This document shows positions 4,023 through 57,613 of a stretch of DNA of 64,000 nucleotides, one piece after another. Position 1 is the stretch's first letter. The number at the start of each line of letters is the position of its first letter. The position numbers and the translations under genes were made by a program. The notes below the pieces were generated by a model that worked only from the letters and a program-made list of their open reading frames with translations, had not been told where the DNA came from and made no database searches. The stretch spans positions 66,222 to 130,221 of the forward strand of contig BCGQ01000005.1 in assembly GCA_001599355.1 (NCBI GenBank), in the 5' to 3' direction. The DNA comes from Nakazawaea peltata. Taxonomy: Eukaryota; Ascomycota; Pichiomycetes; Alaninales; Pachysolenaceae.

Positions 4023-5155
4023 ACAAACACCGTTAATTTACGACTGAAGACTTTGTTCTTCTTTACTTCCTACACCACTGCATTGATAACAAAAATAATG
4101 ATCCACACAAAGACCATACACTGACCATCCGACAGACGATGATCCGTCATTCATTCACTCATTTTGTACACCCATTTCCATTCTAGAACGATACTTATTA
4201 TCTGATGTTTTATACTATTATTACTAAATATAATCGACTAATATACGGAACTCGATAACGAACTATAAACAAGCTGTAGATTAGATAAGATATTATTGCA
4301 CCTGGTGCTTGTGTTGCCTCACTCTCATGCAAGAAGCCTCTTTTCAAATCGAATTTCAGCTCTATTGAGCTCTCTATTGAGAGTTGCAGCTGCTGAAGGC
4401 TACTGCTCTCAGCCTCCTCGTCCACCGCCCCAGAAATTCTGTATTGGGAAATTAAGCAGATTGTTTTTTCCCTCATCTCCAGCCACGCTCTGTAAATAGT
4501 GAATTTTTCTGCACCGCTGCTAAAAGATAGGGGCACGAGAACTCTCGGCACAGCCTCAGATATTGGGTAGAAATACACGACCTCTTGGTGGCTTAATTAA
4601 GTCTACAAAATATCATAAACTACATGATTCTCCTAGCATAACTCCATCATTCTTTTAATTATGCTATGCAAGATCCCAGATATCCTTCTGGAGTTTCTAT
4701 TATTATCATTTCTCACTAGTCACAAATCTTCTCCGTGTAGGTCTTTTTGGTGCACTCTTTTACCCCTTTTCTTCTCCGTTTTGCCCACCCCTTGAAGTAA
4801 AAAAAAAAAACTTTAAAAAGACGCGACTGTGTCACACTCTGAAACCAAACTTGCCCACCCCTTTAAAAATAAATTTGAACGACACTTCGAGGGTGGTGTC
4901 ACAAAGGGGCATGTACTGACTTGCGATCTTGGTCACGTGAAAACCGAGGTTCAGATCTTCGGTTTGACAGCTCCTGTGCTGTTATGGTTACACGATTCAG
5001 AACCTACAAAGCATATTTTGATCATAATCAAGTATATTTGGTATATAGTAAAAGAAAGCGAGTCAAGAAAACCGTAGATCTATACAGAACTAATCAATTC
5101 TCCTTCAAATAATCGTCTAAAAACAAAGGAATGTCCGTAGTATTTGATAACCTGC
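4023..5155. other. convergent intergenic region SUR1 / TOS1
   Basis: 1.1 kb between two gene 3' ends. It contains one copy of the recurrent GTCGTGTA...CCCAAT module on the minus strand (4562-4581), a palindromic TCACGTGA (4933-4940), and right after it a 7-bp inverted repeat AAACCGA / TCGGTTT (4940-4964). A minus-strand open frame (about 4210-4535) looks faintly protein-like but has no recognisable family. Confidence 0.45.
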
Positions 5156-6529
5156 TTAAGAAGAGATCTCAGCAGTACCACCGGTCTTGGATTCCCAAGA
5201 AGAGACGGTGCTGGAGTCCAAAGAGGAACCAAAGTCGGTGCTGTCATCCAAAACAACAATGTGAACTTCACCGTTGTCAAAGATCAGAGCAGCCTTCATA
5301 CTGGAGTCGGTTGGTCTGGTGAAGTAATCTTGGGATCCTCCACCACCGCTGGAGCTACCGTTGTCACCTTCACCATCGTGCAAGTGGGAGATCAATCTGG
5401 TCTCACCGGCAGTCAAGATCTCGAACAAGTCTAACTCACCACATCCAGTACTCCAACAGGAACAAGAGCTGTCACCGTATTGTAAAGTTCTTGGGATCTT
5501 AGCGTTCAATAACCAGATCAGAGGCATGTCGTAGTTAGTAGTAGAAGAACTCAGAGTAGACTCGGTTGGCATCTCGAATTCAAAGACAAAGATCTTCTCA
5601 GCACCACCGAAACCGTGGTACAGAGGAATGTCAGAACGGTAGTAACCACAGTCTCCAACACTAGAGTCGTCACAGTCAGATCCAGAGAAGATCATGTACT
5701 CGACATCGGACTCGATGGTGACAGAACCCAAGGCAACAGCCTCGGAAGAAGCACTGCTACCGTCAGCAGCACAGTAAGACAAAGAGTTACCGAAACAAGA
5801 AGACCAAGTACCGGAACCGTTGACACCTCCAAGAGAGTTCAAGAAAGTGACGTTGGTGGTGGAACCTGGTTCGAAGTAAGCAACTCTCTCCCAAGCACCG
5901 GTAGAAGATGAGGAAGAAGAGGAGCTGGTAGTAGCCTTAGCAGAGCTAGAAGAGGAAGAAGAGGAAGAGGTGGTGGTGTCAGTAGTAGTTTGGGAAATAG
6001 AGGTAGAGGTGGCAGTAGCAGCCTCGGTGTCATCAGCAGCAGTGGTAGAAGTAGAAGTACCAGTAGCAGTAGAAGTGATCAAGTTACCATTTTGGTCGAC
6101 GAAAACAGTCTCGGTGACCTCAATAATCTTAAGAGCACGCTTATGGTTGTGGTGAACATGTTGAGTAGTAGTACAAGCCTCCTCTTCAACAGCCTCTCTC
6201 TTCATCTTCTTGGAAGAAGACGAAGAAGATGGGTAATAAACACCAAATTGCAATAACTTCAATGGACCTCTGAAATGGACACTCAACTCCTCATCCAATG
6301 GACTCATAGTACCAGAGAAATCGACAGTCTCTTGAGAACAAGAACAAGAACTCTCATCCATGTTAGTGACATCGGAATAGGAACCAGAGTATCCGATACC
6401 AGAGTAAACTACGGCATCGACTTGGTCACAGTAGTAATTACCACTGGAGTAGTCACAACCTGCACTGACAGTAGCAGGCAGAGCCATCAACAAAGTTGAC
6501 AGAAGCTTCAAAAGAGTCGAGTACTTCAT
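5156..6529 (-). CDS. TOS1: TOS1-like cell wall protein (putative glycoside hydrolase)
   Basis: 457 residues. A signal peptide (1-23, ending near VSAG) precedes a cysteine-containing N-terminal domain (GCDYSSGNYYC, then a cluster SSCSCSQE), which matches the Tos1 N-terminal wall domain. Dibasic sites KMKR and NHKR around residues 107-130 look like Kex2 processing sites. A Ser/Thr-rich linker (about 155-215), likely O-mannosylated, leads to the C-terminal domain of Tos1-like putative glycosyl hydrolases with WLLNAKIPRTLQYG and CSCWSTGCGELDLFEIL. Tos1 of S. cerevisiae has about the same length. No GPI-attachment tail is visible. The name means target of SBF; CACGAAAA and CGCGAAA elements lie upstream. 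Confidence 0.88.
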   Translation of the reverse strand: MKYSTLLKLLSTLLMALPATVSAGCDYSSGNYYCDQVDAVVYSGIGYSGSYSDVTNMDESSCSCSQETVDFSGTMSPLDEELSVHFRGPLKLLQFGVYYPSSSSSSKKMKREAVEEEACTTTQHVHHNHKRALKIIEVTETVFVDQNGNLITSTATGTSTSTTAADDTEAATATSTSISQTTTDTTTSSSSSSSSSAKATTSSSSSSSSTGAWERVAYFEPGSTTNVTFLNSLGGVNGSGTWSSCFGNSLSYCAADGSSASSEAVALGSVTIESDVEYMIFSGSDCDDSSVGDCGYYRSDIPLYHGFGGAEKIFVFEFEMPTESTLSSSTTNYDMPLIWLLNAKIPRTLQYGDSSCSCWSTGCGELDLFEILTAGETRLISHLHDGEGDNGSSSGGGGSQDYFTRPTDSSMKAALIFDNGEVHIVVLDDSTDFGSSLDSSTVSSWESKTGGTAEISS

Positions 6530-8598
6530 GTTTTCAACTCTAATCTAATACACAAATTAAAAATAACACGAAAAATACAGCAAGGGAGATAAACTAAGAA
6601 CTGGATTTCTCTCAATATGACGATATCTCTCAATGCAAGGAACGACTGGAGTTGGACTAATAATGAGGTATTTGATAAGTGAACAGATTTCAGAAAAATT
6701 CAAAAAAATATCAGGATGCGGATACACATTTCAATAAATACTACTCTAATGCACAAATGCTAAGAGCATTTTGTAAAACTTCCCTGCTAAAAACCCCCCA
6801 AATTCTCCCTTCCCAAGCCCTTGTTTACTTTTTTTCTTTGTCTTTGTACTTTAAATTAGGTTTCCAAGGCTTCAATACAGTGTTTTATCTTGAGAAAGGG
6901 CAGAAATAGGGCAACCTGCAGGGCTTATGCGCGAAATTGAGAAAATAGCCAAGCAAGTTACGACTCATTTCGTAAGTTTTTCCTATCCTTGCCTATTTTT
7001 CGCTCAATAGGTGCACAACGGGTATTTAGTTCTTGCCAAATAGGGAAATCCATCCTTTCTTTTTTTCTTGGAATGCCGGTATTTTTCTCCAAATAGCGAA
7101 GTTTTCACGCAGACGCCAATCACATTTTTCTCCTTTTCAGAGAAAATCGCTCCTTTTTGCACTTTAAATTCTATAAGATCTCGGAGAAAAAGACTATACA
7201 TAATCTCTTCTTCTATTTTAAATGACTATTTCGCGATAATAGCTTACATAATTTTTACAGTGTAGCTGGGGGGTCCCCGTGGTATTAACAACCAGCCGCC
7301 TCTCGACTCCAGAATCGAATCATAAATCCAATAGTGGCTTACTCTTTTCACTTTTGTATAAGCCCCATCTCATTTGCCGACTCTTTCGATTCGTCGACCG
7401 AGACCAAACTGTGCCCAGGCATTTTTCATAATCTGCCGGTTGCCTATTGTTCTTAATCTTAATTCACAATTAAAAAGAAAAGAGATGATGAAATCTTTTA
7501 AAAGTTTTTTCTTTTCTTGCTTAATTAGCTGCATTATATGCTCCTGACGACCAAAAGATTCATCACTTCCTATGCATCTGCAGTCCATGAACAGTGGTAT
7601 TCACCGCATATGATCCAATCTAGACTTTGTCCAGTTCGCCTAATCTTCGTATACTTCTTGGGAGAGATGTATCTGCGGCGTTATAGGGGCTCTAAAGCGC
7701 ACTCACCCCCTCACCTCTTACATAAAAAACGAGGTCACTATAATAGATATTACGAGTTAAGATCTTGTATGCCTCGGGTATCGGATGGGCCCGCTAATCA
7801 GGGAATAAGTATAACCTGGTAACTTTTACTCCTAGCCTCTGATTGCACTCTTTTTTTAGCAGAAGAACTTCTCAATACCCCAAAGCTGCAGAAAAGCGCC
7901 CTCCATTTCATCTACCACATGACCCATCGGGATGAACCTAGTTGATTCATCGCCGACATATCATAGAACCTATTTAAATTCTGCTGCAATAAGTATTCGA
8001 ACCCCATCGTATTGTCATCCAGTAATTTTCTCATCCGAGCTCTAGTCAATTTTGCAGCCGCACAAAGAAAAAGGGGTTCAAAAGCTTAACAAACCGCTAG
8101 GAAAACAGCCAAAAATTTGAAGACCCCCATTTTACAGGTTTGTTGGTTTTTACCACGGAGTATCCTGGTTACATCAGATGACAACTGGGTATTGAATTAG
8201 TCGGCGCGTGTTTGCCTGTCGTCAAACTGGTGTATTGACAGCCCTATAAGTCAATAACACAAAAAACAGTTAGAAAATATCTAATTTTTGAAGAGGGGGT
8301 TTTCACTTTTTAGATGTTCAAAGGGGGGACCCTTTGGAAATCCAGAAAGTTTGGGGGATTTTGAAGAGAAGAGATCGACGAGGGAATAGAGACCTGGAGA
8401 CAAGAAAAAAAAAACTGAAAAAAATGTCAAAACCCCCTTCTGTTTGCACTGTATTTCCCCTTCTCAGACAAAGAATACCCCATAACTAAATTTGAATGAT
8501 ATTTTATAGCTCCTAAAAAGCTATTTGAGATTCAAAAGAACCTGTCAATCGAGTCGATCAACCATCGTCGAATCTCCTTTTCGACTCGAAGTGAAGAA
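6530..8598. other. gene-poor upstream region of TOS1
   Basis: About 2.1 kb without a credible gene. The proximal part carries SBF-type elements (CACGAAAA 6567-6574, CGCGAAA 6930-6936, TTTCGCG 7229-7235). A 94-codon ATG frame at 7538-7822 has random-looking composition. The tract around 7690-7860 ends in T7 and could be an untranslated RNA, but I see no diagnostic boxes. Several poly-A and poly-T stretches occur. Confidence 0.45.
6567..7235. promoter_or_regulatory. SBF-like elements upstream of TOS1
   Basis: CACGAAAA at 6567-6574 (about 40 bp before the TOS1 ATG), CGCGAAA at 6930-6936 and its reverse complement TTTCGCG at 7229-7235 match the Swi4/Swi6 cell-cycle box CRCGAAA. TOS1 is a known SBF target in S. 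cerevisiae, so conserved G1/S control is likely. The nearest box may lie inside the 5' leader. Confidence 0.45.
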
Positions 8599-9162: not shown

Positions 9163-9662
9163 ATGGTGAGTTTCGATTCATTTTGTTGCAATTGCAACAC
9201 TACCGTTTTGAGTTCCTTATGGCTAACTAGTGATCCTCTAATGGCGTTGACATGTGATAGAATACGTATGGTACTGAGGTGTACAATTAAGTTGATCAAA
9301 ATATGATTCTCAGAATTCAGTATACGTATATTGTCATGATCAGCCCGGGAGAAAATTATAGACCAATCCACTTTTGAAGCAAAGAGCCGCTACCGCTAAG
9401 TTCAACAAGAAGCAAGAACAGAAGATGGGAAAGCCTAGAGCCCAATTCAAGAAGCTGGAGGCTGCTCCTCTTTCCAAGACATGGATATGTAAGTGATGAA
9501 TTTTGAATTTTTGGTAAAGATATTGCTGTCGTGTACAATGTCCCATTTCAACACTGTGCCATTTCAACCTTTTACACTGGTTCCTTACTAACAACTACAG
9601 ATTTTATCGTCTTTTTGGTGTGTGGAGGTGCTGTTTTAGAAATTATCCGTTTCTTCTTCTGA
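9163..9662 (+). CDS. YSY6: RAMP4/SERP1-family ER protein YSY6, two introns
   Basis: Spliced product is about 63 residues, beginning MTNPLLKQRAATAKFNKKQ, with a conserved LSKTWIYFIVFLVCGG segment and a C-terminal tail anchor. Human RAMP4/SERP1 and yeast Ysy6 share this plan: basic cytosolic N-terminus, then a single C-terminal span in the ER, associated with the Sec61 translocon and the secretory stress response. Exons are 9163-9165, 9362-9488 and 9601-9662. The first coding exon is only the ATG. Intron 1 is GTGAGT...TAG (196 nt, no exact TACTAAC seen); intron 2 is GTAAGT...CAG (112 nt) with TACTAAC at 9586-9592. The reading frame closes exactly over both junctions. Confidence 0.88.
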
Positions 9663-16095: not shown

Positions 16096-16475
16096 CAATA
16101 AATATAGCTTATTATAAAGTTTATTAATGAGTAAATGACTAACTACATGACTACCCCATCGACTGTAAATGAATAAATCACTATTTTAGGGAAGACTTAG
16201 GGGGTTATATTACGTAAGCAACCTAATTAGGAAATATTAGTGGGGAATGACTTTAAGTCAAACAATTAATTATCCCACTTAGGCAATTTGGTTATACACG
16301 ACTTACCACCGATCCCTCAAGGTATCCCTAAATCACCTACTACTCTTAACCGTAAGCTCGATTAAGATTTATATGAAGATCTCTCTACAAACTCTACCAC
16401 CTACCAATCACTACAACCTCTTAGTTAACTCTATCAATTATTATATGCAAAATCTCATCTACACTCTACTTACCA
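16096..16475. other. convergent intergenic region with a GTCGTGTA module
   Basis: 380 bp between two 3' ends. On the minus strand it reads GTCGTGTATAACCAAAT (from 16302), then CCTAATTAGG and GCTTACGTAA (16219-16210); the same components in the same order occur near 50519. A 13-bp palindrome TGACTTTAAGTCA lies at 16248-16260. Confidence 0.5.
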
Positions 16476-19400
16476 CTAAATCTGCTGAACCTTCGCATAA
16501 TTAGGCGGATTCAACCGACGATGAATACTCTTCAGTAACCATACCGGGAATAATGAAACCGATATAATGACAAGAATTTGCCAAAAGAAACTAACAGAAT
16601 AAACATAATCCAAATCATAATACTCACTTAAAAATGGAACAGATCCAAGATACAGAACCCAAGTGATAACTTCACTCAGAATCATGGTCTTGGTCCATGT
16701 GTTAACTTCCAATACAACCATGATCAATTCATTGAAAATTAACAGTGAGAATGAAATGGCTACCATCTTGGTGAAATTTACATCATTAGCAGCAAGACCA
16801 GCAGTAAAGAATTGAGAGAAAATCTGAATCACGATCCCTTGGAAAAGAGATACCAAACACCAGATACAGAATGTCTTATATGAAAGTGATTTGCCCATAG
16901 TAAGTTCACGATATAATTCCGGATACAAATTCAGAAGTCCTTCATTGACATCTGTATCGAAAACTAACGAAAAGACAGGTGCCATAGTATATACAGTGGC
17001 ATAACCAACCATTAACCAGCCTTGGTACAACAGCAAAGGTTCAAAAGAGGACGAAATCGCATACACCAGCTGGCAGACACTGATAATCAAACCTCTATGA
17101 ATAACAAACTGCAGTAATTTGGCACTACGTTTATACGAATTACGACCATGCCAAAGCAATAATTTAGTCAAATGACAGAACTGAGTGATGGAGAAGTCCA
17201 GCAGCAACGACAGTTGTTTACCCTCTTTACCTACAATACCAACACCTACGTCGGCACATTGAATCATACTGACATCATTACCTCCATCACCAATACAACA
17301 AACTCTTTTACCAGTCAGTTCTCTGATCAATAACAGGACATCCAGCTTTTGTTGAGGCGAACAACGACATGCAATAACGGCTGGTAAATGAACTACAATA
17401 TCAAAGAATTCCTGTTTATAATGATGAAGGTAAAGACCTAAAGACTCACCGTCGATCAATAACAGAGCGTTACGATTCATTTTCAAGAACTCAACCAGCA
17501 GCATTGCTGTCTCAGGGTTATTAAGTTTAGTCACCGTATGAACATATTGACCTCTAGTGATCAATTTCAGACTAACACTAACACAACGAGCAGTCTCAAC
17601 TTTATCACCAGTCAACATCCAAATCTTGACACCAGCATTACGAAGTAATTCGATCGATGAGTTGACATCTTTCTGTAATTTATCTTCAACTCCAGTGAGA
17701 CCCAATAACTCCAAATCTTTCTCCAAATATTCACCTACAACTTGAGCCATCAACGAGTCTCTGTCAACCATCGACATGGACAGCAGTTTGAAAGCTTCTA
17801 CAAACAGTGAATATCCTTCTTTACTCAACTTCTTCCGTCCAATAACCAATGTACGTAATCCTTCACGCAGCATATTACCTGTCTCTTCTTCAAGCCAGTC
17901 ATTTTGTTCCACAATCGAGATCATCACAGTGTCGGCTCCCTTCTGTAAGAACCAAAGTTCATCTTTCAGCACATCACGTACAATGATACCCATACGTTTG
18001 GAATCGGAATTGAAGGGGAACACATTCAAAATATCATACTCCTGATGCTGTCCAGACAGTTCATGCATCAATGTCAACTTGGTACGGTCTCTCTTAAATA
18101 ATGATAATCCTACACTCTCGGTGAACTTAACAATAGCCACTTCATCTGGTGACAGCAGCTGATAAGTCAATTCTCCATCCTCAAAAGTAGGTGTGACATT
18201 ATGACAAATCAGTAAAGTACTCACCAAATCACGGATTCGGCCACCGATATCTTTTCTAGTAGCAGTCTTTGGTCTTTGTTTCCCGTTACCAAACATATCT
18301 CTGACGTAATCGGTGACTAAATCCATAGTATCTCCAGCATACGATATGGAACCAAGATGTAATTTCTTTAATTCCATATCGTTCTGTGTCAAGGTACCGG
18401 TCTTATCACTTAAAAGGTACTCGATTCTACCCAAATCTTCAGGTATAGTACTGGTTCTCACTACGGTCTCCGGGATTGTGGTGTCGTGTTCAATTTGATA
18501 CAGATAAACGGACTTTCCCAAATCCAAATTCACACGTAAAGATACCGGGATAATCGTAGAGAACAAAATTAAGAATCTCATGATATCAACATACCAATCA
18601 TCTCTGAACTCATTGACCAGAACAAGACAAATACTCAACAAAAACACACAAACACATAAGATTTTCGAGAGAGAGTTGATCTCCAACTCGAGTAACCCAG
18701 TTTTTACACCAGCTTTAGTGGTATTCATCAGCTGTCTAGTATCAGTACCAGTATATACGACAAGTCCTATCAGAGAACCCGAGGCAAGTACAGTATTGGC
18801 CCAAAGAGTGTTATCTACAGACAAAGCAGCTGAACCGTTGGTTCCATCGATGCTCAATTTACCCAAAAACTTGTGGATATCCTTAGAAGGACCACCCACA
18901 GTGACTACACATCTCTCTAAATCATCCAAAGACAAGCCTTGAGTGACGGGACAGGCCAAACGTAACTTCCAGTCGGTTTCACCATCCAATTGGTCCGTCT
19001 TGATAAACGACTCACCGTTCAGCTCACTCGACTGAAGTAATACCATATCCAGAGGGATTCGAGTGTCTTTATATACACGGACCAAATCTCCCACCTTCAA
19101 ATTCTTACTCATTACTGTGCCATCACGAGACCGAGAATTACTACCAAACAACACCTCATACTTCTCATTGTTCTGTTCACTATCACGACGACGTCTTTGA
19201 ATGTCGTCTAACAGCTCTTTAGACATAGTCACACATAACACAAATGACAACGGAACTATATATGAAGAGAGATACCCAATACGAAGTTGGGGAATCAGCT
19301 GAGAGAGCAGTACTAATAAGAAATACAAGTTGAAGAAGAACTTGAACTGCTCGTAAAGAATGATAGGGATGAAAGTGAAGGCATTGTATTTAGCATTGGA

Positions 19401-20852: not shown

Positions 20853-21749
20853 CTATACACGACAGTTCGAAATCTCAAACACTAAAATATCACTAGCATT
20901 GTTCTGCTTCAACTTGTCCATAACGGTACCAATATCTCTACGTTCAACCATTGCTGAAACCAGAACCCAAGAATCATCTTCTAACGGACTAACAGTCAGA
21001 GCTCTTCTACCAGGAGTAATCTTCAAAACTTCCTTAACGTTAGAACGTGGAGCATTGTAGTTACATAAGACATATTTCTGAGCAGCCATAACACCTTCGA
21101 TTCTCGATTTAATAATATCTACAAGTTCTGGGTGAGATGGGTTCTTGGAGACAATCAAATGAGCAGATGTGTCCAAAACAGTGGTGATGGCCTTCAATCC
21201 AGCAGCTCTCATTGTCTCTCCACTTTCTACCAAATCGACAATCAGATCGGCAACACCAAGAGCACATGACAGTTCAACAGATCCACCAACGTATTTGATC
21301 TTGGTTTGTAAAGGTTTACCGGTCTCTTCGACTTTCTCCAACTTCTCAAAGTATTGGGTGGCCAATCTGGTGAAAGAAGTAGTAATGGTCTTACCGATCA
21401 ATTGCTCTGGAGAGTCGTAAGGTCCATTCTCTGGTACTTGAATTTGTAACTTACAACGACCGAACAACAAGTCCTTCAGCAACTCAACGTCGACGTCACT
21501 CTCCTTAACTTGGTCAACACCAGTAATACCAATGGAACAACGACCTTCTCCGACGAAAGTTGGAATATCAGCCAGAGGCAAGAAAATTAACAGAATTGGC
21601 AAGTTGGTACTCAACAGGATGTCCAATCTCGAAGATCTGTGGAACTGAATGTCGGATCCTTTCAAAATATCCACACATTTCTCATATAATCTTCCCTTCT
21701 TTGGGACCAGGAACAATAAACGATCGTTCAAGTGGTTAACTAAATCCAT
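20853..21749 (-). CDS. HIS1: ATP phosphoribosyltransferase, first step of histidine synthesis
   Basis: 298 residues, essentially the length of S. cerevisiae His1 (297). It condenses ATP and PRPP to phosphoribosyl-ATP and is feedback-inhibited by histidine (cytosolic hexamer). The N-terminal catalytic fold begins DRLLFLVPKKGRLYEKCVDIL; the family signature is ADLIVDLVESGETMRAAGL; the C-terminal ACT-like regulatory domain (about 220-298) contains SPLEDDSWVLVSAMVE. This is the long, HisZ-independent form. A TGACTCA box lies 60 bp upstream of the ATG, consistent with Gcn4 general amino acid control. Confidence 0.97.
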   Translation of the reverse strand: MDLVNHLNDRLLFLVPKKGRLYEKCVDILKGSDIQFHRSSRLDILLSTNLPILLIFLPLADIPTFVGEGRCSIGITGVDQVKESDVDVELLKDLLFGRCKLQIQVPENGPYDSPEQLIGKTITTSFTRLATQYFEKLEKVEETGKPLQTKIKYVGGSVELSCALGVADLIVDLVESGETMRAAGLKAITTVLDTSAHLIVSKNPSHPELVDIIKSRIEGVMAAQKYVLCNYNAPRSNVKEVLKITPGRRALTVSPLEDDSWVLVSAMVERRDIGTVMDKLKQNNASDILVFEISNCRV

Positions 21750-24827: not shown

Positions 24828-25197
24828 TCCCTTCCAATCTCATCTACTACCTGTATATATTTATTAAAATTAACGTTTTGTACACGACTTTATTTGTTGA
24901 TAATTGTAGGCTTTAGGGTTTGCGATTAGTGGAGAAAACAGCGTAAGTTGACTAATACTACTTCTAATTACATCATTCGAGTCATTTTCATGGAAAATGG
25001 CGGTAATGATCTAGCCCTCTTTCCTCATCGGATCAAGTACTTAATATATCCGCCCCAACCCCCTGTAGATCCAGGGTCGTGCATAACTAAACTGAGCGGA
25101 TCTCTCAGCTATTTTCGGATATTTGGCGAAATTCCAAATCCCAAAAATTATCCCGCCTATCGAATATATAAGGGCTCAAAAAGATATTGTTTGAAAA
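24828..25197. other. intergenic PET117 / RidA gene
   Basis: 370 bp. GTCGTGTA lies on the minus strand at 24888-24881, about 55 bp after the PET117 stop. TTTAGGGTTTG is at 24911-24921 and a TATA box (ATATATAAGG) about 30 bp before the RidA ATG. Nothing else is seen. Confidence 0.45.
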
Positions 25198-29148: not shown

Positions 29149-30335
29149 CTTCAAAACAAACACTTAGTTGCGATGCAATAAATTAAGTGGGGGCAAAAAT
29201 GGGGGGAGGGGAAGGGGGGTAGTAGACTCTGATACCGGTTGAAATAAATAAATATGCGAATATAATGATGCAAATACAGATGTATCAATGTTATATACAA
29301 GTGTATCAAGTCTGTCGATATATTCAAATCTATTTCTTTCAATATGACGCGATTCAATAATTCTTAAATACTTATCAAATCATAAATTAACATCACCTCT
29401 TTTCTTTTGCAGTAAAGACCGATAAGATCGGCCAATCGGGAAGATGTGGAATGGGACCATAAGGGGAAACAAATTCCTATTCTGGAAGTCATAATTTTTT
29501 TTGACTCATTTATACAGACCATAATAACTCCGGATTTTTATTCCTTATTTGGGAGTGAAGTACTCAGAAATAGTCGTGTAATGTATACCAACATTGCGTG
29601 CAGTATCCGGAAATAGTCGTGCAAAATATACAAACACACAGAATAGTCGTGCGAAATACATCGATGCACAGAATAGTCGTGCAAACATGTCAGGTGCATT
29701 AAAGAGAACTCCTCAACAATATGAGGTGCAGTAAGTCAACGGTCGATTAATGACGTAGAGCCCTACCCCCATTTCTTCACCGTGCCGTTACTTCGCATTC
29801 ATATCAACCTTAAATTGAAACCCTGACATCGACTCAGCCTCATTCCAACTCGGTATCTCGCTTGTCTCATATTTATCCGAACAAATCGACCCAACGAGCC
29901 ACTCTTTTATTGTTTTTTTACAGGGTCTGATGAGCTCAATGCGCTCTATCCGAGAATAAAAACGAGAAGTCCGAAAAAAAATTGAACGCAATGCGAGACC
30001 GAAAGAGAAGGGGGCTAATGCGCACACAGACCCGATGAGCCCTAGCTTAAGCTGCATAATCGTTAAATTCGGACGGCTTAAACTCCACACTAATCCTAGA
30101 TCTGGAAGAATTCTGCTTGCATCGCCCCCATTTGACTGGTGATCTTTAGGTAATCGCCATTTTTTTCATCTTCATCGGCCGTTATCCTTATTTACACTCT
30201 ATTTTCTACCGGGATATATAAACCTTGTCTTTTCCTGTAGGTCCTCTGTCTTAATTGCTTTTCATTGCATTATCAATTAAGCTTAATCCTAATTAGGCCG
30301 GCTGAATAGACTTTTGTTTTCCGTTTAATTACACT
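29149..30335. other. divergent promoter region with 30-bp repeats
   Basis: 1.2 kb between the Sue1-like gene and the RTA1-family gene. It holds a four-run G tract (29189-29219), a TGACTCAT Gcn4-type box (29502-29509), four AATAGTCGTG repeats (29567-29700) and a CCTAATTAGG (30290-30299). A minus-strand ATG frame of 89 codons (29788-30057) has no recognisable family. Confidence 0.5.
29567..29700 (+). repeat. four degenerate ~30-bp repeats with core ATAGTCGTG
   Basis: GTCGTG cores begin at 29573, 29616, 29646 and 29676 (spacing 43, 30, 30), each inside an AATAGTCGTG(T/C) block and followed by an A-rich half. The last two units share CAGAATAGTCGTGC and a GTGCA/ATGCA ending. The core is the same as in the dispersed GTCGTGTA motif, which suggests a multi-copy binding site upstream of one of the two divergent genes. 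Confidence 0.65.
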
Positions 30336-37763: not shown

Positions 37764-38310
37764 TATATAAATGTAATAGAGACAGCACTAATAGGTTTAG
37801 GAATGTTTGTGTGTAGAAATGAGGAGTAGAGCAGTAGAGTATTAGAGACGTAGATTTAGATATCTGTTGGGGTTACGATCCGTTTGGAGGCTTCCCTACC
37901 TTAAGGTCAAGTCTAATACTGTGTGTCTCATCCACTTCCTGATCACCCCCAAAATTACCCCTATCTTAGGTCGTGTACTCCCAATTTCTCGTTTCTTTCA
38001 ACTATCTTCGGCGGAGCTTACGTAAGCATTTTCTATTTTGTCTCTCTCTATCACTTGCCCAAAAGGGAAACTTTCTCGCCCTATCGCATGATAACAGATT
38101 TCGGAGATCTCCGAATGCCTAAAAACGGCTGGGCGAGTCCGGGAACTCCTGCGGAGACTTCCCACTTACTTCTGATGAGATGGTCAAACAAGAGGAGAAG
38201 CGGAGAGAATTTTTGGTAAATTAAGCGCATCAGCCTGTTCCTATTTATATTTGTACGTATTACTTCTGAATTTTTCACCCGTTTTACTGTCGAGAACAAA
38301 CCATTAAATA
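37764..38310. other. intergenic GT71 / DAL1, with a GTCGTGTA module
   Basis: 547 bp. GTCGTGTACTCCCAATTT begins at 37970, and 46 bp after the start of the core is a perfect 12-bp palindrome GCTTACGTAAGC (38016-38027). A single GATAA (38090-38094) is the only GATA-type site noticed before DAL1. No gene is seen. Confidence 0.5.
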
Positions 38311-40203: not shown

Positions 40204-40420
40204 AAGAGGTAAATAAGTAATTTATAATCGATATGCTTAATGGGTAGTAGGATGAGGGTAGATGATATCACACACATGATGTACGTAAGTGGTAAAGCTA
40301 GCCCTGTTTAACTCCTGGTGCACCCCTCTGTGGCCTAGCCTAACCTAAATCCAAAAGGTCGTGCACACCCAATTTCCTATCTAGGATATCTACATAACCC
40401 CCAATTTATCTATAATTACT

Positions 40421-43204
40421 CTATATATGATAATTAATGCGTAATACTTCTCTGGCCCCCTGATCAACATGAACAAGTACCTGAGACTCCAATTGTGATT
40501 CTCCATACAAATTTTGATACCCAGCAATCAAATTGCCAAATATTTGATACAACTCATCTCCTGGATACTCATAAAACAGAATACATTCAAAGAATTTAGC
40601 AAGAGAATTCTTGATCAGAATACTCTTCAATTCCAATGGTTTCATGGTCAATAAATGACACATTCCCTTGAATGCGGTCTCCTTCTCATCATTCTCCTGC
40701 AAAAACAGCATGTGACTACACCAACTCAATAAAAACTCCTCCAAATATGGCGCAAACAGAAGAGGGTTCAGAATAGAAATTCTTCCGATCGTAATCAGCA
40801 GATTTTCTAACACACTCGGCTGTACATCGGAGGAATTTAATAACGGAATTAAAACCTGCGCCAAATTATTAAGGAAAGGTTCAAGCTCGCTTGGAGTTGC
40901 GCAATGGAGCAGAAATTCTCCTAAAGCCCAAACCGCATTGTTAACCGAAGCGGAACTATTGAAGTTACGGTTGGTGATTTCATGACCGATTGTGATGATG
41001 ACAAGCTGCAAGTACGGCTTGACAATAGAATCCAGTACAAAGATAGATAAATCTCCTAATAACAGGAAAGCACTTTGTCTGACATCATCTACCGGGTCCT
41101 CGAAACAAGACAAAAGTAATTGCATAAGTGAGAATTTGGACCCTTGATCATGTTGTAAAATCAACCCTGCGATTTCCTTCTGTAATCCTTGAACTAATCC
41201 GTCAATTAAATCCAATGACGTAATGATAAAATCTTTTTCTAATTCGATAGCCGTTGCCAAAGAGGTCGATAATTCCCCACTATTCAATTTCGTATCTTGC
41301 TCAATACATCTGCCCAAGATCTTGAACAGACGGGCATAAACGTCCACGGCAAATGGAGCAAATGATTCACCTAATGACAGTGCTACACTTGACATACATT
41401 CCAATAATGGCCATAAATCTTTATCGTCATCACTCAACAATTGCCATTTGTTAATTAATGGTGGTAACAATAACTCGATGTACTCGGGTTTCTGCTGTAA
41501 AATATCCCCAACTTTCTCCACAAAAGTCTGGATCGAGTCGTACAAAATGATCAAATTCTTCCTCTTGTACTTGGCGAAACAAGAGTTGAAGAAATTGAGG
41601 AGCAGTTCGATCATGCCTCCATCGGCTATTAATTCCATTTCGCAACGTTCGATGAAATTAGAGATCGACGAACACAGCAGCTCTTGTACAATCTTCTTAT
41701 TATCAAGAGCACATTGCATAATGATGGAGAATGTAGCCTCGAAATATCCTTTGTAAGCTCCTCCTTGATACAGCTGAGTACAAATCCATGGAGCATAACG
41801 TCCAAGAGTCCAACAAGTGATTTGACGTACACGAGGCTCCAGATCTTGGAGCCTATCACATAAGAATGGGATAAGTTCAGGAATATTATGTTCCAGTAAC
41901 TCAAGACATCCTTCCAGGATGGCTCCGAACAGAAGAATACCCAGTTCACGGATAGGCCATTCTGGGGATTGGATACGAGGTTTTAATAATGGTAAAACTA
42001 TCAGGATCACTTCCTCTGGAATCATCGACAGAAATACATCTAATGTAGCTGCCGAACATTTACGGATGGTCCAATCTGAATAATCTGAATCTTCGTCGTC
42101 GTCATCTTCTTCTTCCTCGGAATCGACTGAGCCACCAACTTCAACAGCTGACGACTTCTTCTCTTGCAGTTTTAACAGTGATTTAACGATAGTAGGTTTA
42201 ATATCATCGTCTCTATCTTCTTGATCCAGATCATCGACCAGATCTTGTTCTTGGAAGGTGAAAATCTCCATCTCTGAATACACCATCTTAGTGAGTAAAA
42301 TATCCAAAACTTGAGGTAACTTTGGACTGATAATATTCTTATCAAAGTCCGACGAGCTGGCAAAACTAAATAAGAATTCCAACAGCTCTAAGACAACTTC
42401 ATCCTCATCATTAGTGATGCAATGAAGTGAATAATCGAGAATACCATTAAGATGAGGAAGCAATTTATCGGGTCTCAGTTCTAAAATAAGAGCAAAACTT
42501 GAACAAAGTTGTTTCCTAACCAATTTAGAACCGTCGGCGCAAAGTCCAAATAATGTTTCAAGGTACAGATCTAATTGAACCAAGAGTGATTGAGACATGA
42601 CTTTAAAGAATTGGTTGATAGCCAAGATGGCATCAGATTTGATCTTGTCATTGGTGATAACAGGACTGCCGACGATCTGAATTAACTGTGGAATAACATA
42701 TTGTAATGGAGAATCCTCTGCCTGTTCTAATTGATAAGTACTATCTTCACAGATTTTCAATAACAGACCCATCAGACCTGGGGATTGCTGCGATGCCACA
42801 AGTTGTAAAAGATGAGGAAGCAAATCTGGCCAATTGGAATACCCCACAATACTGAAAATCGTAGTAATAACATTCCCTGTGATGTTCCTTACAAGCTGAT
42901 CAGAGTCCAGAATACCTTTGAGAATGTCTTGTAAGAGTGAAGGGTCGATCAAATTTTGCTTCGAAAGCGAGTTTTTGAGGAATAATCCAGCACTGGCCCT
43001 AACCGCCGAGTCAAGATGTCCCATTTCTGGTGCTGCATTACATAAAATGTATAATAAATAGTTGTTCAAACCAGGTTGAGATTTCAGCTGTTCCAACAGT
43101 TGTTGCAGCAGAGTTCTCTCGGCACTGTTTGAGCTAAGAGTCCCCTGTAACACTTGTCTAAGCTGTTGGATCAGATTCCCATCAGCATTCCACCCACCTG
43201 ACAT
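40421..43204 (-). CDS. KAP104: karyopherin beta-2 / transportin KAP104
   Basis: 927 residues, close to S. cerevisiae Kap104 (918). HEAT-repeat nuclear import receptor for PY-NLS cargo such as Nab2 and Hrp1. It begins with the typical QLRQVLQGTLSSNSAERTLL and later SNWPDLLPHLLQLV and RKCSAATLDVFLSMIP. The acidic H8 loop (DSEEEEDDDDEDSDYSDW, about 343-360) that responds to Ran-GTP precedes a conserved EWPIRELGILLFGAILEGC helix and RQITCWTLGRYAPWI. It is convergent with DAL1 across 217 bp and starts at a unique ATG. Confidence 0.95.
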   Translation of the reverse strand: MSGGWNADGNLIQQLRQVLQGTLSSNSAERTLLQQLLEQLKSQPGLNNYLLYILCNAAPEMGHLDSAVRASAGLFLKNSLSKQNLIDPSLLQDILKGILDSDQLVRNITGNVITTIFSIVGYSNWPDLLPHLLQLVASQQSPGLMGLLLKICEDSTYQLEQAEDSPLQYVIPQLIQIVGSPVITNDKIKSDAILAINQFFKVMSQSLLVQLDLYLETLFGLCADGSKLVRKQLCSSFALILELRPDKLLPHLNGILDYSLHCITNDEDEVVLELLEFLFSFASSSDFDKNIISPKLPQVLDILLTKMVYSEMEIFTFQEQDLVDDLDQEDRDDDIKPTIVKSLLKLQEKKSSAVEVGGSVDSEEEEDDDDEDSDYSDWTIRKCSAATLDVFLSMIPEEVILIVLPLLKPRIQSPEWPIRELGILLFGAILEGCLELLEHNIPELIPFLCDRLQDLEPRVRQITCWTLGRYAPWICTQLYQGGAYKGYFEATFSIIMQCALDNKKIVQELLCSSISNFIERCEMELIADGGMIELLLNFFNSCFAKYKRKNLIILYDSIQTFVEKVGDILQQKPEYIELLLPPLINKWQLLSDDDKDLWPLLECMSSVALSLGESFAPFAVDVYARLFKILGRCIEQDTKLNSGELSTSLATAIELEKDFIITSLDLIDGLVQGLQKEIAGLILQHDQGSKFSLMQLLLSCFEDPVDDVRQSAFLLLGDLSIFVLDSIVKPYLQLVIITIGHEITNRNFNSSASVNNAVWALGEFLLHCATPSELEPFLNNLAQVLIPLLNSSDVQPSVLENLLITIGRISILNPLLFAPYLEEFLLSWCSHMLFLQENDEKETAFKGMCHLLTMKPLELKSILIKNSLAKFFECILFYEYPGDELYQIFGNLIAGYQNLYGESQLESQVLVHVDQGAREVLRINYHI

Positions 43205-50349: not shown

Positions 50350-50675
50350 TAGATATGATGGTATAGGATTTTGTAGGTGGGTGGTAATTGTAGGTGGGAA
50401 GTTCTTGTGAGCGGTGGCCATAGGTCAGTAGGCAGCTTTAACGCTATTAAGAATGATATCAGCACTAACCTTATAGGGTACAGTAGGACTAATTTTGGGG
50501 GTACATTAGGGGTGTTTGGTCGTGTACTACCAATATTACTAATTAGGAAAGCTTACGTAATCAACATCACCAACTAACTTCAATATTATTCACTTGATAC
50601 CTCTACACTTCACTTCGCTTCACTTCACTTCACTTCATATATGTATATATCATTCATTTGCTATGTAGGTCCAGC
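50350..50675. other. convergent intergenic SLX5 / Atos gene, with GTCGTGTA module and CACTT repeat
   Basis: 326 bp. GTCGTGTACTACCAAT starts at 50519, followed by CTAATTAGG and GCTTACGTAA (50551-50560). Then comes a pentamer repeat (CACTT)6 with one variant unit (50606-50637), and TATATGTATATAT, the likely 3' processing region. Confidence 0.55.
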
Positions 50676-52505
50676 CTATAATATAAATCCATGACGTCTT
50701 TTGTTTCGTTGAGGATTTGAAGGAGGACTAGACTCCTGTTGAGAAGAAGCAAATCCACGGATGAGTTGAGGTCCAGTTTCTTCTTCATCTTCATCTTCAA
50801 ATACCTGACAACTACCTGAGACGGGTTCTTCTCCTTCCTTTTCAATATATCCCTCTTCATCTTTACTTAACTTCCCTAATAATAAACGTTTTGATACTTT
50901 CCATTGGACAGAATAATCTCTTTTGAAATGATCCAAATGAGGTTCCGGAGTTTCTGGACTATTTGGTGATTTCAGATATGGTGGAGATACTGACCCAGTT
51001 GCTGGTTCAATCTGAGTCTCTTTCATATGCAATAACTTCCTATTCATTTCTTTACATGCTGGGCATTTCTTGTAATATTCAAGCCTTAATTTGGATTTAC
51101 CTCCCTTGATGATTTCTGACAGTTTCAAAGGCTGTTGCAGTGAGGAGCTCGGACTAGGTTCCGATGCTCGATTCTCGTCTTGGCCCAGAACAGGCAAGAT
51201 CCGATTATAAAAGATCACTTTTATATTGTTGAAAAGAATATACTTCCCCTTCCATCTTGCAACATGGATTTGGATAGTACTAATGAACTGTCTATGATCA
51301 TTTCCTGAGTAAGAACTGTTAGACGCAGACCCCGGTACTCCCGAAGTGTATAAGTTACGTCTTAAGAAGGTTTTCTCCCCGTTTTGTAGTCCCTCTTGCA
51401 GTAAATCATATTTGAAGATAAGACATTCCGAGACTGTTTGTTGTTCGTTGATTAATAATAATTGGAGAAGGAAATGCTGTGGGATGGCAGAGCCAGGGAA
51501 ACTACGTTTAGTTGAGTCCAACAGAGACTCGTCAAGTCGTGTAATTTCACGCTCGATGAAATATTTGTCTAAATCAATGACTCCTACGTAAGGTGATCCC
51601 AGAGAAGGTGAGCCCAGAGAAGATCCCAGGGAAGATCCGAGAGTAGACCCCAGAGTCGAACCCCCAGTAGAGTCCAATCCCGACGGCCAGTCATAATAAA
51701 CAGCCTCAAACGGAATCTGATGTCTCAGGTATTCCTTTTGTAATCTAGGCTTATCAGTAAGAGGATCCAACTCTGAAACAGTCAATTTCAGAGTAAATTT
51801 AATAGGATGAGAAGCAAATCCCGAAGTTCTCCCTGTAAGAAGAGATTCTTGGAATGATGTGGTAAGTGCAAGAGATGAACGACGACGTGGTCTATACGAC
51901 AGTGGCAGCGAAACGTGGCGAACATTAACTGGGATACTCCCATTTGGAGACCCTACAGTTGGGTATCTGTTTTTGGGTATCCATAAAGGTTTGTCGGTAG
52001 GTAATGAAGAACCAGGAGATGGTGTATATGAATATTCAGATGACACAGATGAAGAAGCAGAGAACCCTCCAGAAGTTGAAAAACCTCCAGAGGTGGAAAA
52101 CCCACCAGAAGTGGACCTGTCGGTGGCTGCACTTGCTGCAGCTGCAGCTGCAGATGTGATAATGGATGAATTCACAGTGGGAGTGATCAGAATATTATCC
52201 TGTTCGAGTAATTTATGGCATCTGAAGCAAAGATGCTGTGAAGGCACGTGATGGTTGTAAGATCTCAGGAAGGAACCACCAGCTGAACCAGTATGATGGA
52301 AATGAGAGTCAGCATAAGACAGGGAAAATACTGGAGTCAGAGCTAATGGCAACATATTAGTATGATCTGAGGCAGATCCTCTGTCTCTGATTCCATTTGT
52401 GCCCCCCATTACCTCGTCCAATCCTTGCATCTCTTCATCACTATCGTTGTCCCCATAAAGTACATGAGATAACGACGATTTACGTCGTGTAGGATAAGAG
52501 CGCAT
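50676..52505 (-). CDS. Atos-family (FAM214/DUF4210-like) protein
   Basis: 609 residues. It has the Atos-type domains in order: TSFQESLLTGRTSG (216-229) followed by PIKFTLKLTVSEL; SPYVGVIDLDKYFIE (304-318); FPGSAIPQHFLLQLLLINE; KTFLRRNLYT; and STIQIHVARWKGKYILFNN with IKVIFYNRIL. CxxC pairs at C93/C96 (CFRC) and C481/C484 (CPAC) could bind metal together. Animal Atos proteins act in transcription of metabolic genes; fungal homologues carry the chromosome-segregation-in-meiosis name in Pfam. I know of no S. cerevisiae orthologue. Low-complexity repeats STSGGF x3 and LGS units occur in linkers. Confidence 0.7.
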   Translation of the reverse strand: MRSYPTRRKSSLSHVLYGDNDSDEEMQGLDEVMGGTNGIRDRGSASDHTNMLPLALTPVFSLSYADSHFHHTGSAGGSFLRSYNHHVPSQHLCFRCHKLLEQDNILITPTVNSSIITSAAAAAASAATDRSTSGGFSTSGGFSTSGGFSASSSVSSEYSYTPSPGSSLPTDKPLWIPKNRYPTVGSPNGSIPVNVRHVSLPLSYRPRRRSSLALTTSFQESLLTGRTSGFASHPIKFTLKLTVSELDPLTDKPRLQKEYLRHQIPFEAVYYDWPSGLDSTGGSTLGSTLGSSLGSSLGSPSLGSPYVGVIDLDKYFIEREITRLDESLLDSTKRSFPGSAIPQHFLLQLLLINEQQTVSECLIFKYDLLQEGLQNGEKTFLRRNLYTSGVPGSASNSSYSGNDHRQFISTIQIHVARWKGKYILFNNIKVIFYNRILPVLGQDENRASEPSPSSSLQQPLKLSEIIKGGKSKLRLEYYKKCPACKEMNRKLLHMKETQIEPATGSVSPPYLKSPNSPETPEPHLDHFKRDYSVQWKVSKRLLLGKLSKDEEGYIEKEGEEPVSGSCQVFEDEDEEETGPQLIRGFASSQQESSPPSNPQRNKRRHGFIL

Positions 52506-54608: not shown

Positions 54609-54896
54609 TTCTTGATACCTCATGTTAGTTCAATTTATGTTCCTCCCTGACTCCCTGCGCACTCTCCCCCTATCTTCCGCCCGCACCCCGCCTAACATCT
54701 GCCTACCCGTCTAGCCTCCGCCTAACCTGCCCCGCGCAGCCACCTCAATGCCTGTATAAATTATGCATTCTCCCTATAAAATTCCTCAGCATTTTACAAC
54801 TTTCTCCCTGTAGATATTAATTAATTATTAACAGCCTAAGCCAATTGACGGGGGCAACTCTACAGAGCTACCAAAGAATATAAATCATAATACATC

Positions 54897-55583
54897 ATGG
54901 ATTTAAATGGTCAACATAAACTCTTCAAGTTCAACTTATTCAAATTACCCCAATCACTGGTATTGAAATCCGTCGGAATCTACCTTTCAGGAGCATTGGT
55001 AAGTGTTAATTAATGGCTGTAAGGGAGGGCTGAGGAGATGGCGGGTAATCTATTGGCGACCGATCATGAATATGAGTCATCAAAGAGTGGTCAATTCGTC
55101 CCATCCCGACTGATGCAGTTTCATTTCACTGTCTTCTACTAACAGTTATAGTACGCTATTGGATTTTGGGTCCTTATCGATATCGCTACATTCTCTAAGA
55201 CAGTCAATGCCAGTGTACAGCATGTATCATTCATTGATTGGCTCCCATTTATTGGATCAACCCTTGGAATGGCAATTGTAAGTTCCATTGAGAAATCCAA
55301 TTTGATCCTGGACTCATCCGATGCCTATGGTAGTGACGATAGAACCAAATGGCAACTGAGATTAATCCTCTTCATTGGATTCAGTTTATTACTGTTGGGA
55401 TTTGCAGGAAGTTTCATCGTTTTGATCTTGAAATATTTAGTGAAAGGATTTACTGAGATGCCTACAGTATGGATGGGAGTTGGTAATTGTATTAGTAATG
55501 GTGCTGTTATGTTAAGTTGTATAGTGTTATGGATCGTGCAGAACATTGAAGAGGATTCGTTCAACTACTCCCTTGCATTATAA
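54897..55583 (+). CDS. VPS68: VPS68 (TMEM50/UPF0220) endosomal membrane protein, one intron
   Basis: The spliced product has 177 residues and four helices. S. cerevisiae Vps68 wording is matched closely: GIYLSGALYAIGFWVLIDI, VSFIDWLPFIGSTLGM, AIVSSIEKSNL and SCIVLWIVQNIEED...YSLAL at the end. It acts with Vps55 in endosome-to-vacuole traffic. Exons are 54897-54998 and 55152-55583; the intron (153 nt, GTAAGT...TAG, TACTAAC 55137-55143) falls inside SGALYA, which only splicing restores. The stop lies 16 bp from the stop of the convergent kinase. Confidence 0.93.
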
Positions 55584-55599
55584 AAAAGGGGAGGCATCA

Positions 55600-56607
55600 T
55601 CACTTACGAAACTCGTCAAAAAAGCGATGCCTCATGATCTCCACCAGGGTCAATCTCTTATCTGGATCATATCTTAAAACAGCACGTAATAAATCGACAC
55701 CGTCATCTTCAATAACACCAAACATTCTACCAAAAGAACGAGTCTTACGAGCTCCATTAAAATTCTGAATCTCTTTCATCAGTTCTGCCGTAATAAATCT
55801 GGTCATAAACTCATGTGAGTACGGTCCAAGTAATTTTATAATCTCCCTCAATTGATCATATGGGTCTTTACCTTGGAAAATCGGTCTATATACACACATT
55901 TCTCCAAGAATGCATCCAAATCCCCAGATATCTATACTTGTTGTGTACGTTTGACAACCGACAATAAGCTCCGGAGCTCTATAATATCTGGAACAAATAT
56001 ACAGAACACTTACCAGGTTCAGGTCCAATTTCTTAGCACTTCCAAAATCACAAATCTTCAATAAATTTGTCAGTGGGTCGATCAAAACATTAGAAGGCTT
56101 GAGATCTCTATGCAGAATCGAATAATGATGCAAATACAGAAGACCATTCAGTAATTGTAAACTGTAACTTTTAACCGGAAGCATTTGCTTTAAATCTCTG
56201 TACTTCTTGATCTCCAGTTGTAAAGTGGAAGGAAGCAGTTCCATCACCAAATGTTGATATATCTTATTGCCATCTTTGGCGTTTGGATAATTGTAGAAGA
56301 ATTTTAACTGCACAATATTAGGATGACTTGTAACCCTGAGTAATTCTAATTCTCTAGACTTGTATTCGGTTTGCAGAGGTACTTTCTTGATCAGGAATGG
56401 ACCAAGCCAGCCTGATGTAGTACCGTGTTCACTGGATGCCCCACCTACATCCATGGCGCCACCCTCTACTTTCAACTCCAGTTGGTACACGCTTCCAAAC
56501 AGACCTTCACCGATCTTCTTGTATTCCTTAATAATCATAGGTCTTTCCTTTCCTGTGGCATTCTCAACCACCTCCTTCACGAGGAATTCATGTGACACCG
56601 TCTCCAT
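55600..56607 (-). CDS. GSK-3 family protein kinase, MCK1/YGK3-like
   Basis: 335 residues. Kinase elements: GEGLFGSVY (33-41), lysine in FLIKKV (74/75), HRDLKPSNV (166-174), DFG (187-189), and the GSK-3 activation segment YICSRYYRAPELIVG, with Y203 matching the autophosphorylated tyrosine. YTTSIDIWGFGCILGEM and QLREIIKLLGPYSHEFMTRF favour the Mck1/Ygk3 branch over Rim11/Mrk1. A 25-residue Gly/Ser-rich insertion separates beta strands 2 and 3. The C-terminus stops at RFFDEFRK, about 45 residues earlier than Mck1, and the stop overlaps GTAAGT, a possible splice donor. Roles in the family: meiosis, stress and glucose signalling. Confidence 0.85.
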   Translation of the reverse strand: METVSHEFLVKEVVENATGKERPMIIKEYKKIGEGLFGSVYQLELKVEGGAMDVGGASSEHGTTSGWLGPFLIKKVPLQTEYKSRELELLRVTSHPNIVQLKFFYNYPNAKDGNKIYQHLVMELLPSTLQLEIKKYRDLKQMLPVKSYSLQLLNGLLYLHHYSILHRDLKPSNVLIDPLTNLLKICDFGSAKKLDLNLVSVLYICSRYYRAPELIVGCQTYTTSIDIWGFGCILGEMCVYRPIFQGKDPYDQLREIIKLLGPYSHEFMTRFITAELMKEIQNFNGARKTRSFGRMFGVIEDDGVDLLRAVLRYDPDKRLTLVEIMRHRFFDEFRK

Positions 56608-57613
56608 GGCTCCTTCTTTGATAGATAAAATAATGACTTGTAATTGGGAAGGGAGCGCTGCTTTGTTGACTTCAAATTAGACGAGTAATTCTTAGCTAAT
56701 TCAACCGATTGATCAATTCTCAGCTTCAATAGACGATTTACTCAACCTCACAAGCACTGATTGATTGATTCAATTAAAGATATTCTCTCACCCTTTTCAA
56801 TCGGATTCATCTCAAATCTCCCTCACTTTTTTTTTCCCTTCTTGTTGTTTTTTGTGTTTTTTTGATCAATCCCAGCACGCACCAGGAAAAACAAAACAAC
56901 GCACAGTCGGTGGGAGGGAAGGGTAGCAATGAAGGCAAGGTGAGGAGAGGGGGTATGCAGGGTAAAAGGGCTGTGGTAGGGGAGATGCAGAAGTGAACTG
57001 AGGCGGGAGGATAAGGGGCTGTGGACAGATTTTTTCACTACGCTACACAGATTATTACTTCGGCCCCGGAACAATTATATCTCAATCTCAATGTCTTTTT
57101 TGACACATTTTAGATCTAGCCTTAGCTGGCGCAGTTACAACTAGTGAAATTAGTAGTGGGAAAAGTGGAGTCGTGCGCAGGGATCAAAAATCATCACCTG
57201 CTGCATTCATGTGATGTCCTTTATTATATTTGGATCGGGTGTATTGTTTGAAGGAGCCCTGAACTGGTATGGACTTTGACTAATAGAAGCTATGGTAAAG
57301 TTATACAGTTTTGATGGCTATCTGCGGGGAATCATCAAACAATAGATTTTCAGTTTCCTCAAGATATTTCAAAATATTTCTCCACTTGTGTTCATCCAAG
57401 TAATATCTTCATACTATCTATTCTCCCATCCCGCACCCCCTCTATTGCTCCCCGATCAACTTTCCTCTCTCACTCTAAATCCCTCTTCGTAATATGCTCC
57501 CCCTCTTTAGGTCGTGTATTTTATCCCAATAGTTATCCTGGAAATTTTCATCTATTCAAAAAAATCTTAGACGCCAGCCAAAGCTTTATCACTTGAACCT
57601 ACAACACATCGTG
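56608..57613. other. divergent promoter, kinase / uS11m
   Basis: 1.0 kb. GTCGTGTATTTTATCCCAAT begins at 57511, about 100 bp before the uS11m ATG; AGTCGTGCGC is at 57172. A T9 run is at 56827. A 83-codon minus frame (56823-57074) is low-complexity and not credible. Confidence 0.45.

Follow-up and report, generated by a model that had tools for sequence, protein, structure and literature searches.

We analysed a stretch of 64,000 nucleotides of the Nakazawaea peltata genome, hereafter the window (contig 5, 66222-130221; assembly of 11.63 Mb in 11 contigs), for the short word GTCGTGTA and, more generally, for the core GTCGTGYA, which, judging by its counts and placement, is a real, genome-wide regulatory site. 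In what we call the extended form, the core GTCGTGYA is followed at a short gap by a strict CCAAT (89 copies in the genome), and between convergent genes this form is often part of a longer, 46-bp composite that includes an Mcm1-like box. The sites of the window are listed below, with positions counted from its first base, the gap given as the number of bases between core and downstream half, and genes given as open reading frames (ORFs).

4562..4582, minus strand: extended site GGTCGTGTA with CCAAT at gap 7; lies between convergent long ORFs 1.1 kb apart; a same-strand ORF of 89 aa follows 86 bp downstream
9528..9535, plus strand: GTCGTGTA, 441 bp upstream of the ORF at 9973; without a half-site at gap 3 or 7
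16209..16241, minus strand: Mcm1-like CCTAATTAGG with TTACGTAA (16210-16217); tail part of a composite, 13.8 bits
16269..16304, minus strand: GTCGTGTA at 16295-16302, then CCAAA at gap 3; convergent gap; composite profile score 19.1 bits
20151..20158, minus strand: GTCGTGTA, 110 bp upstream of ORF 16476-20045 (minus), of the phospholipid-translocating ATPase type
20856..20863, minus strand: GTCGTGTA, within the last codons of the HisG-type ORF 20853-21749; probably inactive as a site
24881..24888, minus strand: GTCGTGTA, divergent gap
25075..25083, plus strand: GGTCGTGCA, 195 bp from the 24881 copy, on the opposite strand
29573..29683, plus strand: cluster of GTCGTGTA at 29573 and GTCGTGCA at 29616 and at 29676, all on the same strand; divergent gap
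37969..37985, plus strand: extended site, gap 3; a stop lies 211 bp behind it and the ATG at 38311 lies 337 bp ahead; then GCTTACGTAA (TTACGTAA at 38018-38025)
40354..40393, plus strand: composite of 24.5 bits, outside the training copies, with an extended site at 40357-40373, gap 3; convergent gap, stops at 40203 and 40421
50516..50564, plus strand: long composite, 47.9 bits, among the training copies; convergent gap with its stops at 50349 and 50676
Parts of this long composite, plus strand: GGTCGTGTA 50518-50526, gap 3, CCAAT 50530-50534, Mcm1-like CTAATTAGGAAA 50539-50550, TTACGTAA 50553-50560
51536..51543, plus strand: GTCGTGTA, inside ORF 50676-52505 (minus); without a half-site at gap 3 or 7
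52484..52491, plus strand: GTCGTGTA, near the 5' end of ORF 50676-52505 (minus)
57510..57530, plus strand: extended site, gap 7; points, from 99 bp upstream, at the ORF that starts at 57614

We found 12 copies of GTCGTGTA in the window, against a mean of 0.81 and a maximum of 3 in 100 dinucleotide shuffles, which set the chance level for the window, and five CCAAT-extended copies, against 0 in the 100 shuffles. A preliminary description of this DNA had listed ten copies of the word and five extended copies, and every one of them lies where it had been placed. Its count of at least ten was correct for those ten and short of the total, the copies at 51536 (+) and 52484 (+) having been overlooked; its chance level of about two has to be lowered to about 0.8, and 3/12 copies (20856, 51536, 52484) overlap ORFs where it had put all but one outside coding exons. 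The genome-wide count that it had proposed was run with the same pattern read backwards as the background, the control used for all genome-wide counts, and gave 1,283 matches to GTCGTGYA vs. 309 for the reversed pattern and 89 vs. 0 for the extended form. Relative to the genome average the window is itself enriched, with 16 GTCGTGYA vs. 7.1 expected and 5 extended copies vs. 0.49 expected, and the site was probably noticed here because the window is denser than the rest of the genome.

The same word stands out when noncoding sequence is ranked without regard to any particular motif. Over 57,894 noncoding bases (window and loci L001-L020; the selected extended sites were masked everywhere but in the window, whose own copies were counted), GTCGTGTA is the most over-represented 8-mer (16 vs. 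0.94 expected), and the top two 7-mers both contain GTCGTG. By 8-mer excess in the window it comes fourth, after poly-A, GCAGCTGC and GCACCACC. Reb1- and Cbf1-type words are weak in noncoding sequence (7 vs. 2.6 expected). In a 251 kb sample consisting of the window and L001-L040, and thus mostly of sequence near extended sites, noncoding and coding occurrences stand at 36:5 for GTCGTGTA and 43:0 for GTCGTGCA; the other 8-base words tested, which differ at 1-2 bases, have at most 5 noncoding occurrences each, with a noncoding bias on tiny counts for the variants GTCGTGCG (3:0) and GTTGTGCA (3:0). The word is therefore abundant, intergenic and far above chance, as would be expected of the site of a general regulatory factor (GRF). 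A chance origin was rejected on the window shuffles, the reversed-pattern genome counts and the 8-mer ranking, and a coding signal was rejected on the scarcity of GTCGTGYA in ORFs.

Two sets of loci were used for the structure and placement of the site. The extended-form set comprises the window and L001-L040, the latter mostly chosen for the extended form, whereas the core-picked set comprises 60 loci selected by the core word alone (74 sites, 65 noncoding), drawn from 100 listed GTCGTGYA sites in the first 1.76 Mb of contig 1, plus strand, with those near loci sampled earlier dropped.

Within 30 bases downstream of GTCGTGYA, we observe 295 matches to CCAAT vs. about 62 expected from the CCAAT rate of the window, and the orientation controls over the same distance yield 65 when ATTGG is sought downstream and 88 when CCAAT is sought upstream (sites holding two CCAAT count twice). 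Two gaps dominate. Gap 3 accounts for 36 and gap 7 for 29 of the first 100 matches listed, and 76/89 extended copies genome-wide have one or the other (gap 3, 48; gap 7, 28; gap 4, 6; gap 6, 5; gap 8, 2; gap 5, 0). In a less biased set, made up of the 89 sites with sufficient flank in the window and the core-picked loci, the sequence at gap 3 is CCAAT in 7 and CCAAA in 6, and at gap 7 it is CTAAT in 6, CCAAA in 6 and CCAAT in fewer than 5. Because CCAAA and CTAAT roughly match or exceed CCAAT in frequency at the preferred offsets, we write the second half as CYAAW, and the site is RGTCGTGYA-N3-CYAAW or RGTCGTGYA-N7-CYAAW. A downstream second half, as first described, is thus retained, whereas the strict CCAAT is better replaced by CYAAW at gap 3 or 7.

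When the sites are placed relative to genes, 17/65 noncoding sites of the core-picked set are directed toward an ATG that lies 60-180 bp downstream (9.1% expected, p-value 5e-5), and the 8/65 that point away from an ATG at the same distance are not above expectation. This preferred place is found before the start codons of many unrelated genes. The 23 sites directed at an ATG no more than 400 bp away have a median distance to it of 143 bp (10-90% range 96-193), and promoter sites typically lie 100-190 bp before the ATG. Neighbouring sites no more than 200 bp apart share their orientation in 26/29 pairs. Tandem same-strand copies 57-58 bp apart were seen at three loci (L040 826/884, L116 301/358, L099 301/358). 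Single cases include a bHLH gene (L006 2798-3907, minus strand) whose ATG is preceded, at 139 bp, by an extended site, and a GTCGTGTA at L009 6968 that lies 300 bp upstream of the snR40 snoRNA gene (7268-7362), both on the plus strand.

The extended-form set holds 84 GTCGTGYA, of which 79 are noncoding: 21 in tandem arrangement toward the next gene, 21 between convergent genes, 15 between divergent genes, 8 antisense to the tandem genes on either side and 14 for which one neighbour is uncalled. An excess in convergent gaps is restricted to this set, where 14/52 noncoding sites of the window and L001-L020 fall in such gaps vs. a baseline of 15%. The earlier remark that several copies sit just past gene 3' ends accordingly applies to a subset between convergent genes and is not general.

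An Mcm1-like element 8-17 bases downstream accompanies 10/21 convergent sites vs. 4/58 other noncoding sites of the extended-form set (p-value 1.3e-4), and with both sets pooled the tie to convergent gaps has a p-value of 6e-5; this expression is a loose one, with a background of 4%, and was composed after copies had been seen. A stricter CC(A/T-rich)GG box near CCYAATTAGG, a pattern also composed after seeing copies, is present at 12/162 pooled sites vs. about 0.55 expected and begins 9-15 bases after GTCGTGYA in 10/12, and the upstream control finds it within 40 bases in 3/162 sites. By its sequence, the long form would thus carry a putative Mcm1 (MADS) box. Two MADS frames of 633 and 173 aa are candidates in the genome, neither being tied to the Mcm1-like box. 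Further downstream, TTACGTAA occurs within 72 bases of 8/162 sites, compared with 1/162 upstream, and several composites extend to it. A composite profile built from 14 copies (13 convergent, one with a neighbour uncalled) scores best on its training members, with a maximum of 47.9 bits at window position 50516, and its best score in reversed sequence is 6.4 bits. Outside the training members, the profile reaches 24-25 bits at the first copy of L116, at window 40354 and at L025; the L025 copy lies in a promoter and the other two lie in convergent gaps.

Part of this site is already in print. GTCGTG is the reverse complement of CACGAC, a word that Tsankov et al. (2010, PMC2897762) described as a candidate GRF site specific to C. 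albicans, the candidate sites in that work having been identified by nucleosome depletion in vivo. The same paper proposes, by inference, that proteasome genes of the Candida clade have depended on CACGAC, and describes GRFs as repeatedly swapped during yeast evolution (PMC2897762). The likeness to our site consists of the six-base core, the candidate GRF role and the proteasome link, which is weakly echoed here. In C. albicans, however, the site is described as a six-base word with no protein named, and the CYAAW half, the gap of 3 or 7, the Mcm1-like companion and the convergent ends are features of the present yeast that the available sections of PMC2897762 do not mention for CACGAC. The present yeast also belongs to another clade than C. 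albicans, with CUG as Ala the best fit. Among the matches listed in open-licence PMC, we found no paper naming a protein that binds CACGAC, and in the Candida or yeast nucleosome literature nothing on CACGAC besides PMC2897762. For GTCGTG in yeast promoters the same literature yielded one paper, which deals with bHLH-PAS factors, and for eight-base spellings of the site it yielded none. The core is therefore already published for C. albicans, whereas the grammar, the companion box and the presence in this clade appear new within the literature searched.

Other bipartite or paired sites of yeasts offer further comparisons. The Saccharomyces Abf1 site is RTCRY-N-ACG. GTCGT fits RTCRY and both sites are bipartite and of GRF type, but the second half of the Abf1 site is ACG at one gap and here it is CYAAW at two gaps; at the three places where ACG would be expected from the consensus, the 89 sites of the less biased set have 36 A, 34 C and 13 G. 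C. albicans, D. hansenii and Y. lipolytica are reported to have no Abf1 ortholog (PMC2897762). Reb1/Nsi1 sites are likewise GRF sites in promoters and past gene ends, and Reb1 has been proposed as a polymerase roadblock (PMC7618759); their site, TTACCCGG, is also the one read in C. albicans by the Reb1 relative Nsi1 (PMC7565893), whereas the Reb1/Nsi1 word TTACCCG is just mildly enriched here (7 vs. 2.6 expected). Finally, an Mcm1 site has been gained beside a GRF-type site at ribosomal protein genes, with a preferred spacing between Rap1 and Mcm1, and Pachysolen tannophilus is among the species with Mcm1 sites at these genes (PMC6173580). In our case the box is paired with GTCGTGYA and mostly begins 9-15 bases beyond it, and the pair lies mainly between convergent genes in the extended-form sample.

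We consider it likely, on the sequence evidence, that GTCGTGYA with its downstream CYAAW is the putative binding site of a GRF-type protein with the C. albicans CACGAC specificity. The fixed orientation and the two gaps make a single abundant factor binding both halves the simplest reading, and we infer that one protein reads both halves and shares its identity with the C. albicans CACGAC factor; two cooperating factors may read the halves instead. In promoters, the factor would usually sit 100-190 bp ahead of the ATG, with one orientation prevailing, and once bound it would keep the promoter region free of nucleosomes for the transcription machinery, a role suggested by the C. albicans counterpart and by the position of the sites. 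At convergent ends, the site and the Mcm1-like (MADS) site, sometimes with TTACGTAA, would form a multi-protein block on the DNA that would stop or separate two oncoming polymerases, as is suggested by the location and by Reb1 as a model (PMC7618759); a role as roadblock or boundary there, also raised in the preliminary description, is possible. The preliminary description had already thought of a GRF site, and the leading rank among intergenic words, the preferred orientation and start-codon distance and the identity of the core with CACGAC support it (PMC2897762). It had named no yeast factor for the site, and the core does match the candidate GRF site of C. albicans (PMC2897762).

Several observations weigh against this interpretation. 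Most core-picked sites fall outside the preferred promoter range, and 78/163 pooled sites, about half, are without a CYAA half at gap 3 or 7. Convergent gaps hold 7/65 core-picked sites vs. the 15% baseline, which is no enrichment, although 16 sites with one and 9 with both neighbours uncalled could also be convergent; in the same set the Mcm1-like element is found at 2/7 convergent vs. 6/58 other sites, and its tie to convergent gaps is not significant (p-value 0.20). All gene-neighbour assignments rest on ORFs called without introns. No binder emerged; a scan for the Abf1 family gave no match, and neither did its controls. The proteasome link is weak, as GTCGTGYA is found upstream of 3/14 core proteasome genes (PF00227) and the CCAAT form points at the gene in 1/14, counts on which a site exclusive to the proteasome is unsupported. 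In favour of the link, 2/5 Rpt-type matches have a same-strand GTCGTGYA with CCAAT within 30 bases, at most 400 bp upstream (one at gap 3, one at gap 12), where distances run from the family match and not from the gene start and the Rpt match of contig 9 was compared only with the extended-form list. Of 21 listed downstream genes, the 20 scanned with CUG as Ala likewise include RPN11 and an RPN1/2-type gene, the others being diverse.

The composite invites a more specific reading, in which an unnamed GRF of several yeast clades reads the two-gap site and, with Mcm1 and a bZIP-type factor, builds a 46-bp boundary element at convergent gene ends; we regard this as doubtful, since the tie between composite and convergent gaps is not significant in the core-picked set. 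Origins of S. cerevisiae often carry GRF and Mcm1 sites, and the place between convergent genes, the Mcm1-like box and the several partial or full copies in 64 kb would suit a replication origin or accessory element, but the same core is directed at promoters in many loci and we find this account of the composite unlikely. The long form could also be a worn short mobile or dispersed repeat carrying these words, given that the 46-bp copies are about 80-96% alike in pairwise hits and that L040 and L116 have about 117 bp in common at 77%. Similarity among nine long-form loci is, however, mostly limited to about 46 bp, the exception being L040 and L116, both of which have two tandem copies, and copying does not explain the two spacings of the short form, its same-strand place before ATGs or the core-only copies. 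A worn mobile repeat, which had been among the earlier suggestions, is thus disfavoured for the short form and very improbable for the long one.

Two further alternatives concern the halves and the strand of the short form. The mammalian ER-stress element is ATTGG-N-CCACG, and in that style the CCAAT half could be a true HAP/NF-Y site and GTCGTGYA the site of a partner factor, as the strong enrichment of CCAAT beside GTCGTGYA in one orientation would suggest. NF-Y requires strict CCAAT, however, and in the less biased set the half varies at both preferred gaps, where CCAAA and CTAAT share the place of CCAAT; the use of CYAAW instead of strict CCAAT argues against a HAP/NF-Y box, and a rigid complex would rarely use gaps 3 and 7 while skipping 5. 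We hold this account to be quite unlikely. The frequent occurrence on the sense strand before an ATG or within 200 nt past a stop could point to a signal that works in RNA, in untranslated regions; with 8/79 noncoding sites antisense to both neighbours and 8/65 core-picked sites pointing away from the gene within 60-180 bp, there is hardly any likelihood left for it. RNA genes as a cause were rejected, as no RNA gene from the Rfam scans overlaps a site: the scan of the window gave one tRNA only, and that of L001-L007 and L009-L038 gave snR40, a tRNA and a 5S gene. The 5S rRNA gene lies at L036 400-520 (minus strand) near the RPN1/2-type gene, which may mean that 5S genes are dispersed in this genome.

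With regard to the genetic code, summed Pfam bits are highest when CUG is read as Ala (1186.1), followed by Ser (1154.6) and Leu (1104.5), over eight leading family hits in seven window ORFs (2796-4022, 5156-6529, 35742-37763, 38311-40203, 40421-43204, 55600-56607 and 20853-21749; one unchanging hit excluded), of which 2/8 are slightly better with Ser. RPN11 is uninformative, with a single CTG in a variable stretch. On this comparison the genome probably belongs with the CUG-Ala yeasts, a clade with the genera Pachysolen, Nakazawaea and Peterozyma. One alanine clade is mentioned among yeasts in the available sections of PMC5951914. In the codons of the window, CTG is common and CTA very rare.

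Further observations were made along the way. AACTCTAC/GTAGAGTT, TCCGCCCA and GCTTACGT are also over-represented in the noncoding sequence of the window and L001-L020 and are possible additional regulatory sites. By eye, a 28-base tandem repeat resembling a telomere repeat (AACATCATAACACCAACACACCCAAGTA, one strand) opens contigs 8 and 9 (L051, L052), a related stretch lies at the end of contig 1 (L042), and the contig ends L044, L046, L053 and L054 carry Thr-rich repeated coding sequence similar to cell-surface adhesins. An origin of the word from telomere repeats was rejected, since the 28-base repeat at two contig ends is without it (by eye).

GRFs set the open regions of yeast genomes. The CACGAC core is the leading intergenic word of a yeast that probably belongs to the CUG-Ala clade, and the longer grammar described here gives a probe sharp enough to find the protein that would read it. 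The composite of the convergent gaps, in turn, provides a defined piece of DNA for tests of termination, boundary or origin function.

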